Assembly: GCA_031266335.1 (NCBI GenBank)
Contig: JAISBF010000159.1
Location: 1-35,786 of the forward strand
DNA from: Verrucomicrobiales bacterium
GTDB lineage: Bacteria > Verrucomicrobiota > Verrucomicrobiia > Methylacidiphilales > JAAUTS01
Reading direction: 5' to 3'
DNA length: 35,786 nt
This document shows positions 1,877-23,512 of the stretch, in pieces. Numbering within the stretch: position 1 is the first letter of the stretch; the number at the start of each line of letters is the position of its first letter. A program made the position numbers and the translations under genes. Under the pieces are notes generated by a model. It searched no databases, had not been told where the DNA came from, and saw only the letters and a list, made by a program, of their open reading frames with translations.

Positions 1877-3250
1877 ATGAACCTGTTCGGCACAAACTCC
1901 AGCCGCCAAGACGCAAAGGCGCAAAGATTAATTTTGTTAAAACTTCGTGCCTTGGCGTCTTCGTGGCCTGAGTTCTTCCAAGTCCTGACCCTGGCCGCCC
2001 TGCTCTCGCTCACTCCCGCCGCCAGCGCCCTTGAACTCGGCCCCTTCTCCGGCGGCCAGGAATCCCCCGGCACCCTCGACTCCGGCATTCCCGGCAACAG
2101 CTCCCTCTTCGTCGGTTGGGCCACCGGCTACCTCGACTACGTGCCCAGTCCGACCAGATTTGACGGCAGATTTTGGACGCCAGAAAAAACCCTCGGCCCG
2201 GCCACCGGCAATGTCATGCATATCGCCTCGCTCGGCGACATGTCCGCGGAAGACCTCGTCGCCTATCTGGCAGACCCCGTGAACGCCGCCGTCAAACCCG
2301 GCACCATCACCCTGACCTTCGACTACGCCATCACCAACGGCACCGGCGCGGACTTCGCCGTGTTTGAAAATGCTTTCATCTCCAACTACACCATCCCTGA
2401 AACCGGCGGCGCCGCCGGCCAGGGCTTTTGCGAACTGGGCTACGTTGAAGTCTCCACCGACGGTTTCACCTTCGCCCGCTTCCCCTCCATCTACCTCAAC
2501 ACTTTCGAGGGCATGCAATTCGACGACGATGGCAATCCCAAAAACTTCAACTACGCCACCATGGAAGTCACCACCATCTACAACATCGCCGGCAAACACT
2601 GCAACGGCTACGGCCCCAGCTACGGCACCCCGTTCGACCTGGACACCCTGGTTGATTTTGACGCTGTGCTGGCCTGTTTGGACGAGATTGGTTTTGAGTT
2701 GACCGAAGCGCAACTGACCAGCTTGCTGGCGCAACTCGCATACAATCAGTCACTGGTGGAGAGCGGAGATCTGAATTTGAACGAAATCAACTTCGTCCGC
2801 GTCGTGGACATCCCCGGTACTGGCGCCTTCAAAGACAGTCTCGACAATCCTATCTACGACGCCTGGCAAACCTATGGCAGCGGCGGCTTTGACCTTGATG
2901 CCGTCGGCGTCCTCCACCAAATCCCCGAACCCTCCACCTGGGCGCTGCTAGTCGCCGGCGGCGGCCTGCTGTTCATCCTTGCCAATGCCCCTTCCTCGCG
3001 GAAGGAAAACAATTCCCCTCTCGTAGAGGGGTGGCGCGTAGCGACGGGGTGTTTTAGCGTTCTGCGCTCTTCCCCTCGGAACGCTAAAACACCCCGTCCG
3101 CTGCGCGTCCACCCCTCTACGAGAGGGGAATTGCCGCTTCTGTATTCCTTCCGCGAGGAAGGGGCATTGCCGCAACTACACGCGGACTCCGGCTTTCCCT
3201 CCCCCTTTTGCAGCGGGTGCTGCAAAAAACCAACAACCAATAATCAATAA
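1877..3250 (+). CDS. Secreted PEP-CTERM protein, FENAF family (family B, copy 1)
   Basis: The protein has 457 residues. Residues from about 35 on match the paralogue at 7319-8572: a signal-peptide core (VLTLAALLSL), FVGWATG, TPEK-LGP-TG, a GADF-VFENAF block, YVEVSTDG-FARFPS, NGYG and a C-terminal GSGGFDLDAVGVLHQ, then IPEPSTWALL and a helix. The function of this domain is not known to me; related acidic surface proteins occur in other bacteria. Both ends are odd. The first 30 or so codons (1877-1975) run through a palindromic repeat, pushing the start upstream of the expected signal peptide. The normal basic tail is replaced by about 90 residues encoded by a 185-bp inverted repeat (2984-3168). 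Spacing of 5 bases from the previous gene suggests co-transcription. Confidence 0.85.
   Translation: MNLFGTNSSRQDAKAQRLILLKLRALASSWPEFFQVLTLAALLSLTPAASALELGPFSGGQESPGTLDSGIPGNSSLFVGWATGYLDYVPSPTRFDGRFWTPEKTLGPATGNVMHIASLGDMSAEDLVAYLADPVNAAVKPGTITLTFDYAITNGTGADFAVFENAFISNYTIPETGGAAGQGFCELGYVEVSTDGFTFARFPSIYLNTFEGMQFDDDGNPKNFNYATMEVTTIYNIAGKHCNGYGPSYGTPFDLDTLVDFDAVLACLDEIGFELTEAQLTSLLAQLAYNQSLVESGDLNLNEINFVRVVDIPGTGAFKDSLDNPIYDAWQTYGSGGFDLDAVGVLHQIPEPSTWALLVAGGGLLFILANAPSSRKENNSPLVEGWRVATGCFSVLRSSPRNAKTPRPLRVHPSTRGELPLLYSFREEGALPQLHADSGFPSPFCSGCCKKPTTNNQ
1900..1970. repeat. Palindromic element inside the 5' end of the 1877 gene
   Basis: The sequence CGCCAAGACGCAAAGGCGCAA is followed by an AT-rich centre and then TTCGTGCCTTGGCGTCTTCG, the two halves being imperfect reverse complements. 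It belongs to the same style as the hairpins at 9449-9599, 10624-10728, 21512-21603 and 23040-23158. Here it is translated as the N-terminal extension of the PEP-CTERM protein. Confidence 0.6.
2984..3168. repeat. 185-bp inverted-repeat element in the 3' end of the 1877 gene
   Basis: Perfect 24-base outer arms (2984-3007 and 3145-3168, rich in CCTTCCTCGCGGAAGG) enclose a second long inverted repeat with AATTCCCCTCTCGTAGAGG at one end and its complement near 3118-3136. The centre lies around 3060-3080. The same modules (CCTTCCGCGAGGAAG, AATTCCCCTGCCG) recur at 6283-6460 and 7115-7261. It lies within the coding frame and supplies the C-terminus of the protein. Confidence 0.8.
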
Positions 3251-4649: not shown

Positions 4650-6110
4650 ATGAACAACAATTATCTGGGCAAATACTTAGTCATTGCCCTCGCGTTAGCT
4701 GTCCTCACGGTCAGCGCTGGTGCCGCGACTGTTACTTGGAACACCACAGAAGGCGATTGGTGGGAGACCGCCAACTGGGATCCCAGCAACACCCCGGTAG
4801 CCAGTGACACCGTCATTGTTGATAATGGCGGCACAGTACTGCTTGATTCCGGCTCCACCCCCCTGATCAAATATTTGTACCTTGGCAACAGCGACGGCGG
4901 CAGCGGCACGGTCATCGTCGGCGGCAACGCCGAGCTAACTGACAACGGCTCAGCCGCCAGAAATATCACGATTGGCAAAGCGGCAGGCAGTCTCGGCATA
5001 CTCACCGTCAAGGACAACGCCACCGTCACGGCGAAAGGTCTTGAAATAGCGACTTTTGGCACCGGCATCATGAACGTCACCGATAACGCGGTTATAACTG
5101 TTACGAATGACCAGGTTGTTATAGCCAACAACAGTGATGGTGTTAACGGAACTCTTAATCTTTCCGGTCATGCCAGCATGGTGCCACTAGCCACCGGTGC
5201 AAATGCTCTTAAGGTAATTACCATGAATGGTGTCAGTGCTTTGAATATCAGCGATTTCGCCAACTTGACGGTCAGAAGCTCAATTAATATGTACAGCAGC
5301 AATGCCACACTCACACTCAGTGATCATGCCACGGTAAATGTCGACAGCATTAATCTTGGTGAAGGGAGCACGATCAACATCAATAGCGACCAAGTGAAAA
5401 TCAACACATTTGACGGCAATGGCCCGGCTAATATTGGCCAATATGGCGGCACCATCAATCTCGACCACTACGGCGAGTTCACCTTTGCCAACCAGCTTGG
5501 CGGTGCCTCGCTCGCCGTCAACGCCCTCAGCGGCATCACCACCCTGACCGCGGCCAACACTTACGGGGGCGCCACCACCATCAGCGCCGGTGCGACCCTC
5601 ATCGCCGCCAGTGAAACCGCGCTGGGCGTCGGCAACATCACCGTCAAAAGCAACGGCACCCTCGCCCTCGCCATAGAAGCCCCCACCTTCCAAGCCTTCA
5701 GCAGCCTCAGTGAGGACGGCACCACCTTCATCATCGGCGGCGACTTGACCGTCGAGACCGGCGGCATCCTGCAACTGGCCGCCACTGACAAGTTGTCCGT
5801 GGACGGTGATTTGGCTTTCGACGGCGGATTAGTCCTCACCTATAGCGACAGTTGGGAACCTACGGAGCTCGATCTTAGCGATTTAATCCTCACCAACAGC
5901 GAAAAGAACATTGCCTTGAACATCCAGACCGTCACCGCCACCAACGGCGAGGAAACCTACATTGGCACCCTCAGCGAGGGTGGCGTGCTGGGCAACTGGG
6001 AAGTCCAACCCATCCCCGAACCCTCGACCTGGTTCCTGCTCGGCGCGGGACTGGGCGGCTTGGCGCTGCTGGTCATCCGCCGCCGGCGCGAGGACAACCT
6101 AAAGATATGA
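4650..6110 (+). CDS. PEP-CTERM protein with autotransporter-associated beta-strand repeats (family C)
   Basis: The protein has 486 residues from the ATG at 4650, preceded by AAAGGA and followed by a signal peptide (NNNYLGKYLVIALALAVLTVSAGAA). The frame is open upstream, but that part is a dispersed palindrome. The body is a long run of beta-strand repeats (ILTVKDNATVT, TLNLSGHASM, TLTLSDHATVNV) and includes a typical autotransporter-associated segment (TLTAANTYGGATTISAGA). This predicts a right-handed beta-helix on the outside of the cell. It ends with IPEPSTWFLLGAG, a helix and an RRRRED tail, a textbook PEP-CTERM signal. It is paralogous at its end to the truncated gene at 1-170. It is likely an extracellular matrix or surface protein; the substrate is unknown. 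Confidence 0.9.
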   Translation: MNNNYLGKYLVIALALAVLTVSAGAATVTWNTTEGDWWETANWDPSNTPVASDTVIVDNGGTVLLDSGSTPLIKYLYLGNSDGGSGTVIVGGNAELTDNGSAARNITIGKAAGSLGILTVKDNATVTAKGLEIATFGTGIMNVTDNAVITVTNDQVVIANNSDGVNGTLNLSGHASMVPLATGANALKVITMNGVSALNISDFANLTVRSSINMYSSNATLTLSDHATVNVDSINLGEGSTININSDQVKINTFDGNGPANIGQYGGTINLDHYGEFTFANQLGGASLAVNALSGITTLTAANTYGGATTISAGATLIAASETALGVGNITVKSNGTLALAIEAPTFQAFSSLSEDGTTFIIGGDLTVETGGILQLAATDKLSVDGDLAFDGGLVLTYSDSWEPTELDLSDLILTNSEKNIALNIQTVTATNGEETYIGTLSEGGVLGNWEVQPIPEPSTWFLLGAGLGGLALLVIRRRREDNLKI

Positions 6111-9444: not shown

Positions 9445-9448
9445 TAGT

Positions 9449-9599
9449 TAACCGCGGAGACGCAGAGACGCGGAGATTCTTTTTGTAAACCACGAAGACA
9501 CCAAGGCACGAAGTTTGATTTAAAAAAAGCCTCCCTTCGTGCCTTCGTGTCTTCGTGGTAAACAGGCAACTCTCCGCGCCTCCGCGCCTCCGCGGTGAA
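9449..9599. repeat. Nested double palindrome between genes
   Basis: Outer arms (about 9449-9477 and 9571-9599) carry ACCGCGGAGACGCAGAGACG and its near complement. Inner arms (9485-9513 and 9535-9563) carry ACCACGAAGACACC-type sequence and its complement. Two palindrome families are thus stacked one inside the other, as if one inserted into the loop of the other. It follows the stop codon of the prepilin gene and may terminate or stabilise its mRNA. Confidence 0.85.
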
Positions 9600-9667
9600 C
9601 ACTTTTGTCCGCCAAAGTTTACGCGACCAAGGCTGCGCCAACCGGCGCGCCGGCGTAGGCTCGCCCG

Positions 9668-10623: not shown

Positions 10624-10728
10624 AAGTGGCTTTGTTTTGCACCACGAAGACACCAAGGCACGAAGTTTCGTTTAAAAAAATCCTTGGTGTCTTCGTGCCT
10701 TCGTGGTGCAAAATAAAACCGCCACTTC
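10624..10728. terminator. Palindrome between convergent genes, possible bidirectional terminator
   Basis: TTTTGCACCACGAAG at 10635-10649 pairs with CTTCGTGGTGCAAAA at about 10698-10712, and outer AAGTGGC/GCCACTT words extend the stem. Between the arms the modules ACACCAAG and GCACGAAG are in a different order on each side. A run of seven A lies in the loop. It belongs to the same family as the inner part of 9449-9599. Sitting between convergent stop codons, it could end transcripts from both sides. Confidence 0.5.
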
Positions 10729-20276: not shown

Positions 20277-20351
20277 CGCCGCCGGCGGTGACGGCCACGG
20301 TCAGCGCCGCTTTTCCTCGACGCGGGGGGAATCCCGCCTAACTTGGTTCCC

Positions 20352-21503
20352 ATGCCCGCGCTGAAGCTCAAACCCGGCGACCGTCCGCGCGTCCTCAAGG
20401 GACACCCGTGGGTGTTTGCCAATGAAGTCCAGCGGCTGTTGCCCGCTGACGCTGACGGCCAGGCGGTCGAGTGTCGCGACGCGCGGGGGCGGCTGCTCGG
20501 CACGGGGATTTACAACGGCAAATCACAAATCGTCTGGCGCCGGTTTGCCGCCGGCCGGGTGGATTTTGACAAGGATTATTTGCGCGGCGCCATCGTCAGC
20601 GCGGCGCGGCGGCGCGGGGACGCTGAGGTTGCGCGGCTGGTGTGGTCGGAGTCGGACCATGTGCCCGGCCTGATTGCCGACCGTTACGGCGACATCATCG
20701 TGTTGCAGGCGCTGACGCTGGCGGTGGACCGGCGCCTGGCTGACATCGCGGATATTTTCGACGAGTTGTTCCACCCGAAATCCATCCTGTTGAAAAACGA
20801 CGCGCCGGTTCGCGTGAAGGAAGGACTCGACCTCACCGTCAGCGTCGCGGGCGCGGAGGTGACGCCGCACTGGCGCAAAATCGGCGACGTGGAATTCTGG
20901 CTCGACCTCGCGGGCGGGCAAAAGACCGGTTTTTACCTCGACCAGCGCGAGGAGTACCGCCGGGTGGCGGCGCGGTGCCGGGGCCAGCGCGTGCTCGACG
21001 CCTGTTGCAACCAGGGCGGTTTCGCGCTGCACGCCGCCGCCGGTGGCGCGACGGAGGTGCTGGGCATTGATATTTCCAAGGAGGCCGTCGCGTTGGCGCG
21101 GCGCAACGCGGAGCATAACCGCTGGCCGAACGTCACGGTCAGCGCCGGGAATGTGTTCGATTATTTCTCGCGCGAGCGGCGGCGCGAGTGGGACGTCATC
21201 ATCCTCGACCCGCCGTCGTTCACGAAAACGAAAGACCGCCTCGGCGCGGCGTTGCGCGGTTACAAGGAACTGAACTTGCGGGCGTTGCAACGCCTGGCGC
21301 CGGGCGGGGTGCTGGCGACTTATGCCTGCTCGCATCACGTCACGCACGATGTTTATTGGAACTTGTTGCTGGACGCTGCCGGTGACGCGGGCCGCGCGGT
21401 GCGGTTGGTGGAGATCCGCCGGCAGCCGGCGGATCATCCGATTTTGCTGAATGTGCCGGAGAGTGAGTATTTGCGGGGCTTCATTTTGGAGGTGGTGGAA
21501 TGA
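20352..21503 (+). CDS. rlmI: RlmI-family class I rRNA (cytosine-C5) methyltransferase
   Basis: The protein has 383 residues from the ATG at 20352 (a TTG at 20343 is less likely). The N-terminal PUA domain is seen in LKPGDRPRVLKGHPWVFANEV. The central part has LVWSESDHVPGLIADRYGD and KTGFYLDQREEYR. The SAM-binding fold follows: LDACCNQGGFALHAA (motif I), VLGIDISKEAVALARRNAEHN and the catalytic IILDPPSFTK, then LAPGGVLATYACSHHV. Family members (RlmI and relatives) methylate a cytosine in 23S rRNA. The gene overlaps the next start by 4 bases (ATGA), so the two are translationally coupled. Confidence 0.92.
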   Translation: MPALKLKPGDRPRVLKGHPWVFANEVQRLLPADADGQAVECRDARGRLLGTGIYNGKSQIVWRRFAAGRVDFDKDYLRGAIVSAARRRGDAEVARLVWSESDHVPGLIADRYGDIIVLQALTLAVDRRLADIADIFDELFHPKSILLKNDAPVRVKEGLDLTVSVAGAEVTPHWRKIGDVEFWLDLAGGQKTGFYLDQREEYRRVAARCRGQRVLDACCNQGGFALHAAAGGATEVLGIDISKEAVALARRNAEHNRWPNVTVSAGNVFDYFSRERRREWDVIILDPPSFTKTKDRLGAALRGYKELNLRALQRLAPGGVLATYACSHHVTHDVYWNLLLDAAGDAGRAVRLVEIRRQPADHPILLNVPESEYLRGFILEVVE

Positions 21504-22135
21504 AAATCAACCTCGCGCAGAGCCGCAGAGACGCGGAGTTTTTGACAGGAAATCATTTATTCTTTTCAAAAAAAACCTCTGCGTCTCTGCGTCTCTGCGC
21601 GAGTATCTTCTTACTGTGCGCCACCGTCAGCGGGGCGGAAATCAAGGCCACTGACGTTGACGGGCGGGAGCGGGTGTTGAACGAGGCGAACACAGTCCAC
21701 GTGGTCATCTACAGCAACGAGGAGGTGCAAGACCGGACGCGCGCGGTGAACCTGGCGCTGGATGAGTTTCAGGGGCTGCCGGGCTTTCGTCCCGTGGTGG
21801 TGGTGGATTTGCGCGGCTCGCTGGCGCAGTTGGCGAAAGGGTACACGCGGCGGCGCGTGGCGCGCGCGCTCGATGCCGAGGCGCTGCGGGTGACGCCGCG
21901 TTATCGTCAGAACGGCAATGCCGGCGACCCGCGCGCGGACCTCTGCGCGGTGGCGGATTTTACCGGCGAGCTGTCGGTCAAGCTGGGCTGGCGGAAGCCG
22001 GCGGCGACGCTGCGGGTGATTATTTTCGACCGACCGGGGGCGGAATTGTTGCGGTGGGAAGATTTGTCCGAGCAGGAGTTTCCCGCGTTGCGCGCGGTGG
22101 TGAAAAAATTGTTGAGCCATGCACCACAAGACTAA
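21500..22135 (+). CDS. Small secreted protein of unknown function, signal peptide built from a palindrome
   Basis: The protein has 211 residues. After five residues the reading frame enters a palindromic element (21512-21603) that encodes AQSRRDAEF and then TSASLRLCASIF. The latter, with LLCATVSGAE, serves as the hydrophobic core and cleavage site of a signal peptide. The mature part (VHVVIYSNEEVQDRTRAVNL, FRPVVVVDLRGSL, LRVIIFDRPGAELLRWEDL) has alternating strands and helices that could be a thioredoxin-like fold, but no catalytic Cys pair is present. The gene lies between rlmI (4-base overlap) and hemC (17-base overlap), so it is part of a tight operon. The function is unknown. Confidence 0.75.
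   Translation: MKINLAQSRRDAEFLTGNHLFFSKKTSASLRLCASIFLLCATVSGAEIKATDVDGRERVLNEANTVHVVIYSNEEVQDRTRAVNLALDEFQGLPGFRPVVVVDLRGSLAQLAKGYTRRRVARALDAEALRVTPRYRQNGNAGDPRADLCAVADFTGELSVKLGWRKPAATLRVIIFDRPGAELLRWEDLSEQEFPALRAVVKKLLSHAPQD
21512..21603. repeat. Palindromic element inside a coding region
   Basis: CGCAGAGCCGCAGAGACGCGGAG is mirrored by CTCTGCGTCTCTGCGTCTCTGCGCG after an AT-rich centre with an eight-A run. It belongs to the ACCGCGGAGACGCAGAG family seen at 9449-9599. Its length keeps the host reading frame open, so it is translated in the gene at 21500. Confidence 0.82.
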
Positions 22136-23030
22136 AATCAATATCGGCACGCGCGGCAGCCGGCTGGCGCTGGCGCAGGCGGAGCTGTTCCAGCGGGCGC
22201 TGACGGCGGCGGACGCTGACGTTGTGCCGGAGACGGTGGTGATTGCCACGACCGGCGACCGCCTGCAAGCCGCCGACGCGAAGCCTGACACGCTGACGAA
22301 GGCGGTGTTTACCAAGGAGTTGGAGGAGGCACTGCTGGCGGGCGCCATTGACGTGGCGGTACATAGCGCGAAGGATTTGCCGGCCGAGTTACCGGACGGT
22401 TTGGTCATCGGCGGCGTGCTGTGTCGCGCGGCGGTGAACGACGTGCTGGTGTCGCGCGCGCCGCTGACAGAGATAGTCGCCAAGCCCGGCGCGGTCATCG
22501 CCACCGGCAGCGTCCGCCGCCGCCGGCAATGGCTGGAACGATACCCTGACACGGAGTTCCTGGCCATCCGCGGCAATCTCGACACCCGGTTGCGCAAGCT
22601 GCGCGAGCAGCCCGCGTGGGACGGCATCATCCTCGCGCAAGCCGGGCTGGAACGCCTGCGTCCCGACACCGACGGCCTCACGGTCAGCGTGCTGCCCGTT
22701 GACTTCGTCAAGCCCGCCGCCGGCCAGGGCGCCATCGCCATCCAATGCGCCGCTGACAGCGCGTGGTTGCCCGTCCTGCGCCTGGTGACGCATCGCCCCA
22801 GCCTGGTGCGGTTGCGCGCCGAGCGGGCCTTTTTGCGCGCCATCGGCGGCGGCTGCCAGGCCCCGCTCGGCGTCCTCGCCCGCGTTTACGACGGGGTGTG
22901 CCTGCATTTGGCCGCTGTTTATTATGCTGACGGCGCGGCGGCCGGCCGCCACGCATATCTCACTGGCAGCGCGTTGCACCCTGAGGAATTGGGGCAACGG
23001 CTGGCGGAGCGGGTGTTGGCGTGGGGGTGA
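22119..23030 (+). CDS. hemC: Porphobilinogen deaminase (hydroxymethylbilane synthase)
   Basis: The protein has 303 residues of typical length. The motifs are in order: IGTRGSRLALAQAE, ATTGDR, FTKELEEALL, DVAVHSAKDLPAELP, a RGNLDTRLRKL, AGLERL, PAAGQGAIAIQC and ERAFLRAIGGGCQAPLGVLA. The Cys in GGCQAP carries the dipyrromethane cofactor. The enzyme joins four porphobilinogen molecules into hydroxymethylbilane in tetrapyrrole synthesis in the cytoplasm. It overlaps the preceding gene by 17 bases. No other heme genes are in this window. Confidence 0.97.
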   Translation: MHHKTKINIGTRGSRLALAQAELFQRALTAADADVVPETVVIATTGDRLQAADAKPDTLTKAVFTKELEEALLAGAIDVAVHSAKDLPAELPDGLVIGGVLCRAAVNDVLVSRAPLTEIVAKPGAVIATGSVRRRRQWLERYPDTEFLAIRGNLDTRLRKLREQPAWDGIILAQAGLERLRPDTDGLTVSVLPVDFVKPAAGQGAIAIQCAADSAWLPVLRLVTHRPSLVRLRAERAFLRAIGGGCQAPLGVLARVYDGVCLHLAAVYYADGAAAGRHAYLTGSALHPEELGQRLAERVLAWG

Positions 23031-23039
23031 TTTACATCC

Positions 23040-23158
23040 TTTCACCACTAAGACACGAAGGCACGAAGGTTTATTAAAAAAAGGCCCTCTCTCCGCGCCT
23101 CCGCGTCTCTGCGGTTATAAAAAGTCTCCCTTTGTGCCTTCGTGTCTTGGTGGTGCAA
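23040..23158. repeat. Nested palindrome after hemC
   Basis: Outer arms TTCACCACTAAGACACGAAG (from 23040) and CTTCGTGTCTTGGTGGTG (to about 23155) are complementary. The loop holds half of a second family (CTCCGCGCCTCCGCGTCTCT, 23088-23113), which appears as one arm only. The outer right arm abuts the first unit of the 42-bp array. Confidence 0.78.
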
Positions 23159-23390
23159 TTGCTTTGGCCACCTCGTTGCCGGTAAAGGTCAACAATGCAA
23201 TTGCTTTTGCCACCCCGCCGCCGGTAAGACCCGGCAATGCAGACGTTTTTGCCACCTCGCCACCGGTAAAGGTCAACAATGCAATTGCTTTTGCCACCTC
23301 GCCGCCGGTAAAGGTCAACAATGCAATTGCTTTTGCCACCTTGCCGCCGGTAAAGGTCATGGTTGCAGCCGTTTTTGCCACTTTGCCAGG
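23155..23390. repeat. Tandem array of a 42-bp unit upstream of fabD
   Basis: Five full units (23155-23196, 23197-23238, 23239-23280, 23281-23322, 23323-23364) and a partial sixth run without spacers. The core words are GCAATTGCTTTTGCCACC, then CCGCCGGTAAAGGTCAACAAT, with unit 3 and the last units more diverged. GCAATTGC is a palindrome within the unit. The array could encode NAIAFAT-PPVKV repeats, but no start or ribosome binding site supports a gene. Confidence 0.93.
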
Positions 23391-23512
23391 ATTGGGAGGC
23401 GTTTTGCGGTTGGCGGGGGATTGGCCGGCGGGGCGGGGCGGGGATAAAAAGTTATTGGCTTAATGGTCGGTCTTTGCCTAGCCTAGGCCGTTCAGTTAAT
23501 CAGGAGGTTGCG

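Follow-up and report, generated by a model that had tools for sequence, protein, structure and literature searches.

The gene between rlmI and hemC in a Verrucomicrobiales bacterium (genome G000) carries close behind its start codon an interspersed palindrome that is read through in frame and accounts for most of the extended N-terminal portion of the predicted signal peptide; the window analyzed here is a stretch of 35,786 nucleotides (nt) around it (contig JAISBF010000159.1; table 1). The ATG of the gene overlaps the stop codon of rlmI (ATGA), the open reading frame runs uninterrupted across the palindrome, and orthologues are found in 45 of 60 relatives, with the Shine-Dalgarno motif kept in G002, G004, and G001. 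Searches of the protein against Pfam and NCBIfam returned zero families above cut-off.

The palindrome starts after four codons, one fewer than the original prediction had counted, and consists of two arms of 32 nt, complementary at 29 positions (91%), around a loop of 28 nt. Its own genome holds 58 similar stretches, and the arm pattern TCGCGCNNAGNCGCNNAGNCGCNNAG gives 29 exact arms there versus 0 for the reversed control, indicating a repeat family rather than chance. We designate this family A1: Each arm is made of three 8-nt units CGCNNAGN, and the layout is TCGCGC-NNAG-N-CGC-NNAG-N-CGC-NNAG, then a loop rich in AT and the arm in reverse complement. Across the phylum the distribution of the arm pattern is patchy, with 16 positive genomes among 145, one of which (G063) has 157 arms. 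Related families with units of 8-10 nt (CACNAAGN, CACGGATNNA, and others) approximately match A1 in abundance. For all such palindromes together, G000 and G003 have a density of approximately 11 per 100 kb and G002 of 4.5, with zero in the genome samples of G001, G004, G005, G006, and G010. It should be noted that the open frame, although real over the approximately 92 bases claimed for it, is by itself weak evidence of coding use: An 8-nt period is not a multiple of three, each frame therefore passes through the same stop-free codon cycle, and A1 left arms have on average 5.9 of 6 frames open.

The element supplies the residues LAQSRRDAEFLTGNHLFFSKKTSASLRLCAS, sharing the first and last codons with its flanks. 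The resulting N-terminus has, judged by sequence and hydropathy, a basic n-region, a hydrophobic core and small residues at positions -1 and -3, as expected of a Sec signal peptide, and is probably cleaved between SGA and E. The arm had been proposed to serve as the hydrophobic core. This does not hold, given that the mean Kyte-Doolittle hydropathy of the native flank IFLLCATVSGA is 2.12 versus 0.61 for the arm part TSASLRLCAS, and that orthologues without the element have full signal peptides. The right arm ends within the codon of Ser35 (AGT, 21602-21604), leaving the I and F of the sequence quoted as the arm, TSASLRLCASIF, outside the element; beyond basic residues, the arm contributes only LCAS at the start of the core.

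Two congeneric orthologues, those of G004 (MKYFLSRMLLSLSAVASVSGAE) and G001 (MRMFCTLMLILCLVPLMLNAAE), lack the element and have complete predicted signal peptides, with the start position and GGAGG the same as in G000. They also lack the element-encoded peptide, and no orthologue was found to have this peptide without the palindrome. At the identical base, G002 carries an A1 element whose units are different (CGCCAAGC, CGCAAAGC) and whose length differs by 18 nt from that in G000, with the frame open in both. Excision of TCGCG..CGCGA yields MKINRIFLLCATVSGAE in G000 (90 nt) and MKNNRFFLLAATVSGAE in G002 (72 nt), restoring the same Arg codon CGT in each. As the orthologues lack the element and excision restores an ordinary signal, we conclude that a signal peptide was already in place when the element arrived, and that the insertion separated its n-region from its core.

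Comparison of the G000 and G002 sequences shows five arm positions changed in both arms in a matching manner, so that each copy is palindromic in itself; this may reflect either two insertions at one site or a single insertion whose arms were later converted. Neither a shared nor a separate insertion is favored by the similarity of the loops or by the gene trees, the gene tree being without resolution here. In G003, the sister of G000, identity is 92% at both rlmI and hemC versus 74% at the gene between them (L150, G003:C159, 5990-6600), suggesting that this gene was probably exchanged. At its 5' junction lies a palindrome of another family, which may either encode the n-region from an internal ATG or provide a TTG start at its end.

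The window contains a second case. The gene of a PEP-CTERM protein has in its signal peptide a palindrome of the AACTCCAG..CTGAGTT family, read as NSSRQDAKAQRLILLKLRALASSWPE, and both the insertion and the peptide are common to G000, G002 (L091, 9136-9218), and G003 (L154, 4408-4489) at the same place. Paralogues in G000 (C77) and G003 (C149) match only from about residue 31-34, just past the element-coded part.

Across 1.29 Mb of sequence from three species, we predicted genes and located 133 palindromes, most of them intergenic (117), with 14 N-terminal within open frames and 2 inside genes; extra cases came from a more sensitive pass and manual reading. We counted a locus as translated where no sensible start lies downstream of the element, and protein names given without a family search are our own reading of the sequence. 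On this basis, such an element would have to be translated at approximately 12 loci; at six it lies in a signal peptide, and at two it directly precedes the hydrophobic segment that comes first in a membrane protein. For the L062 and L192 genes, the alignments of several orthologues begin immediately past the element-coded part: At 98% identity, the L062 orthologue of G003 matches from residue 50 only, and the G002 copy of the L192 gene matches from residue 19, the G003 copy of the latter (99% identity) including the element. For the L127 gene, the G003 copy matches from residue 22, a readable G004 copy is without the element, and the G002 copy, matching from residue 2, may carry it. In the L192 lipoprotein, hydropathy places the hydrophobic core in the palindrome arm. 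L118 (G002) resembles a further signal-peptide case, lies at a contig edge, and is excluded from the count.

Table 1.—Features at the rlmI-hemC locus, at the second locus of the window, and at further loci with translated elements.
Feature	Genome or locus	Position	Strand	Basis or remark
rlmI-like methyltransferase gene (PUA and SAM domains)	Window	20343-21503	+	Family search
Shine-Dalgarno GGAGG	Window	21488-21492	+	7 nt 5' of ATG 21500; sequence
Secreted-protein gene, family unknown, 211 aa	Window	21500-22135	+	Open reading frame; between rlmI and hemC
Palindromic element, family A1	Window	21512-21603	.	92 nt; core TCGCG..CGCGA at 21513-21602, 90 nt
Left arm	Window	21512-21543	+	Encodes LAQSRRDAEFL, basic n-region
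Loop	Window	21544-21571	+	With inner arm ends encodes LTGNHLFFSKK
Right arm	Window	21572-21603	+	Encodes KTSASLRLCAS
Native hydrophobic core IFLLCATVSGA, not element DNA	Window	21605-21637	+	Sequence; alignment with G002, G004, G001; hydropathy
hemC (porphobilinogen deaminase)	Window	22119-23030	+	Family search
PEP-CTERM protein gene, element in signal peptide	Window	1877-3247	+	Family search; sequence
Palindromic element, AACTCCAG..CTGAGTT family	Window	1895-1974	.	Read in signal peptide
Signal peptide, rlmI-hemC gene	G000, G002; G003 L150			A1 in G000 and G002; in G003 a separate case with another family
Signal peptide	L062	8397-8469		MKNFLATGWKK[SRAETRRRGVGFNRKSSASPRLRAR]LILLCVFFLPLTVRA
Signal peptide	L127	815-886		M[NSSRKDAKPRSFFSRSLGVFAAGV]LLSLSAPAHA
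Lipoprotein signal	L192 (G000:C26)	2326-2441	-	MKQIKKILGAPLPLCALVLIAFSGC; GTG start in loop, core in right arm
Membrane protein	L066	10901-10971		Before first hydrophobic segment
Membrane protein	L086	1023-1180		Before first hydrophobic segment; different repeat family
U32-type peptidase gene, internal in frame, twice	L078 (G000:C143)	5157-5229 and 5955-6041	-	
HrpB-like helicase, internal in frame	L074	6594-6664		
Beta-lactamase-fold hydrolase, internal in frame	G002 L081	11120-11186		

Hydrophobic N-termini are present in 37.5% of the 896 called genes and, at approximately 90 nt each, make up about 3% of the 1.0 Mb of coding sequence; finding 6 of 12 translated insertions there has a binomial probability of about 6e-7. 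This value is a description and not a clean test, with small counts, a set assembled after the pattern was seen, and a definition of translated loci that favors dispensable N-termini. Signal peptides look like a favored refuge for such repeats, and the simplest reading is one of tolerance, in that n-regions accept long basic additions and folded domains do not.

For the gene between rlmI and hemC, we consider it probable (at about 0.75) that a copy of A1 was inserted into a pre-existing Sec signal peptide, lengthening the n-region with the original core kept, and that it is tolerated rather than required. A copy of this high-copy, non-autonomous element would have inserted in the Arg codon (C^GT) of MKINR-IFLLCATVSGA-E, at a point we infer to lie between the basic n-region and the hydrophobic core. 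The frame would have stayed open because the length of the element core is a multiple of three and the arms consist of stop-free 8-nt units, giving an element-encoded basic n-region of approximately 30 residues ahead of the original core, to which LCAS adds slightly. The protein should still be exported, since Sec tolerates long basic n-regions, and the insertion would survive as nearly neutral since the n-region is among the few coding places that tolerate 24-30 extra residues.

Several observations weigh against this reading. Export of the protein is suggested by its composition, and whether the excised length is a multiple of three depends on where the ends are drawn (92 nt as reported by the tool, 90 nt for TCGCG..CGCGA). 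No target-site duplication is visible in the empty-site comparison at this locus. G004, a close relative of G002, is without the element, and the insertions in G000 and G002 may be either shared or separate. Finally, the ratio of nonsynonymous to synonymous changes (pN/pS) in the element codons of the second window locus is 0.3-0.5 on 7-14 changes, which hints at some constraint as opposed to full neutrality and would be compatible with later domestication.

That the palindrome was truly domesticated, with the basic n-region and the LCAS of the right arm needed for targeting and kept for an improved or retuned export, appears unlikely to us. The element makes the predicted core a little stronger (best 9-mer LCASIFLLC at 2.74 versus IFLLCATVS at 2.43 without it), the native signal on its own has only about 16 residues, and arms are reused elsewhere, as the core LGAPLPLCALVLI of L192 and as the n-region and start of the core of L127; the peptide conserved in three species at the second window locus also fits this explanation. 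The element peptide at the same place is, however, quite different in G002, another one in G003, and absent from G004 and G001, and the signal rebuilt at the empty site appears complete. Of the proposal that the palindrome has been domesticated as a signal peptide, what stands is the in-frame element that makes up most of the long N-terminal part; domestication itself, which would mean that the element residues are needed, is unproven here.

Highly improbable is a role as an RNA element, in which a hairpin 12 nt past the start codon would control translation relative to rlmI, with incidental coding capacity. Its appeal lies in the high stability of the hairpin (-72.5 kcal/mol for 21470-21625, z = -7.9) beside the overlapping stop and start codons, and in the mostly intergenic position of the family copies (117/133), but the element is absent from G004 and G001 despite the same overlap, the frame is preserved although the elements of G000 and G002 differ in length by 18 nt, and there is no ATG, GTG, or TTG between the element and the mature part that would permit the element to remain untranslated. 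Least credible of all is a start within the element at TTG 21542 (MTGNHLFFSKKTSASLRLCASIFLLCATVSGAE), which is in frame and would give a shorter, conventional signal peptide from the second half alone, since a spacing of just 3 nt separates this TTG from its GGAG, which the stem sequesters, whereas ATG 21500 has its GGAGG at 7 nt, kept in the relatives.

Returning to insertion into an existing signal peptide, a broader version would make signal-peptide n-regions a general niche for these palindromes in the Verrucomicrobiota, through which sets of secreted proteins acquire new signal peptides, some of them then kept by selection. We regard this as possible but tentative, with the odds somewhat against it. 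As 8 mod 3 = 2, all three frames of an arm lack stops and read almost alike; as the strands read either basic (RRDAE-like) or mildly hydrophobic (LCVSASLR-like), insertion after a start codon would tend to create a usable n-region or core. The three-species case at position 1895 and the L192 lipoprotein are candidate examples of kept copies. The interpretation given in the original prediction is partly supported, and its general idea deserves a genome-wide test, though domestication is unproven for the gene at 21500. These loci provide a natural set of insertions through which the N-termini of secreted proteins were rebuilt by mobile palindromes, and congeners without the element serve as controls, making the conversion of non-coding repeats into protein sequence and the tolerance of signal peptides directly testable. 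They also carry a warning for annotation, as the assumption that repeats are non-coding may lead to misplaced start codons and signal peptides in Verrucomicrobiota rich in repeats.

Other palindromes were seen in the same sequences. At 9447-9600 of the window, a palindrome of the CACGAAG family (9484-9564) is nested in one of the CGCGGAG family (arms 9447-9476 and 9571-9600). Further CACGAAG-family palindromes lie at 10628-10720 and at 23040-23158; the latter is directly 3' of hemC and its loop contains an arm-like piece of the CGCGGAG family. Short in-frame repeats with GKGQQCNCFCHLAAGKGQQ-like translations occupy 23140-23450, between hemC and fabD. L061 and L064 (G000) and L090 and L109 (G002) hold large double palindromes AATTCCCCTTCCGTGAAGGGGTGGC..AACGCTGAACTACCCCGTC, which are often arranged in tandem.

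Regarding known systems, A1 has terminal inverted repeats like those of miniature inverted-repeat transposable elements, and no parental transposon was identified for it. High-copy, mostly intergenic palindromes are also characteristic of repetitive extragenic palindromes (REPs), of which GTAG and CGTC types with REP-associated tyrosine transposases (RAYTs) are known, including in Opitutus terrae of the same phylum (PMC3733652), and Y1 transposase genes are present in G000. REPs measure 20-40 nt, whereas the elements described here are 70-100 nt long; by eye, A1 ends bear no GTAG or CGTC tag, the ends being TCGCGC/GCGCGA on arms of 27-32 nt in elements of 70-92 nt. A RAYT as the mover of A1 is unsupported: Among the part of the RAYT loci examined, the palindromes beside RAYT-like Y1_Tnp genes (L043 and L050 in G000, L045 in G002) are of other families (GGAGCGCGGGCGTCCCGCCCGC, CTGGGAGCGCCGGC, CCTGGGAACGCGGGGC), which probably represent the genuine REPs of G000 and G002.

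The closest resemblance is to the in-frame palindromes of Rickettsia (Rickettsia palindromic elements, RPEs; Ogata et al. 2000) and Wolbachia, as cited in PMC2229807, and the original prediction was correct in drawing this parallel to a distant phylum. As in those elements, the repeats are interspersed multi-copy palindromes of approximately 100 nt, found in and between genes and inserted in frame in otherwise conserved proteins, with orthologues lacking them. Unlike RPEs, A1 occurs in another phylum and has another sequence (8-nt CGCNNAGN units), the likeness being drawn at the level of class, and many of the translated copies described here lie in signal peptides, with only some inside proteins. 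A direct precedent for a repeat in a signal peptide comes from Yersinia pestis, where YPO1552 contains the RU-2/YPAL repeat in its predicted signal peptide and has homologues with unrelated signal peptides (Delihas 2007, PMC2759123). That repeat is 168 bp long and a few fusions were reported, whereas here the element family is a different one, the fusions extend over several genes and several families, and congeners without the element are seen. We found no description of the 8-nt-unit families in the open-access literature, by sequence strings or by words. In-frame palindromes and a repeat within a signal peptide were thus already known, and what is new is the element family, the phylum, and the repeated landing in signal peptides.
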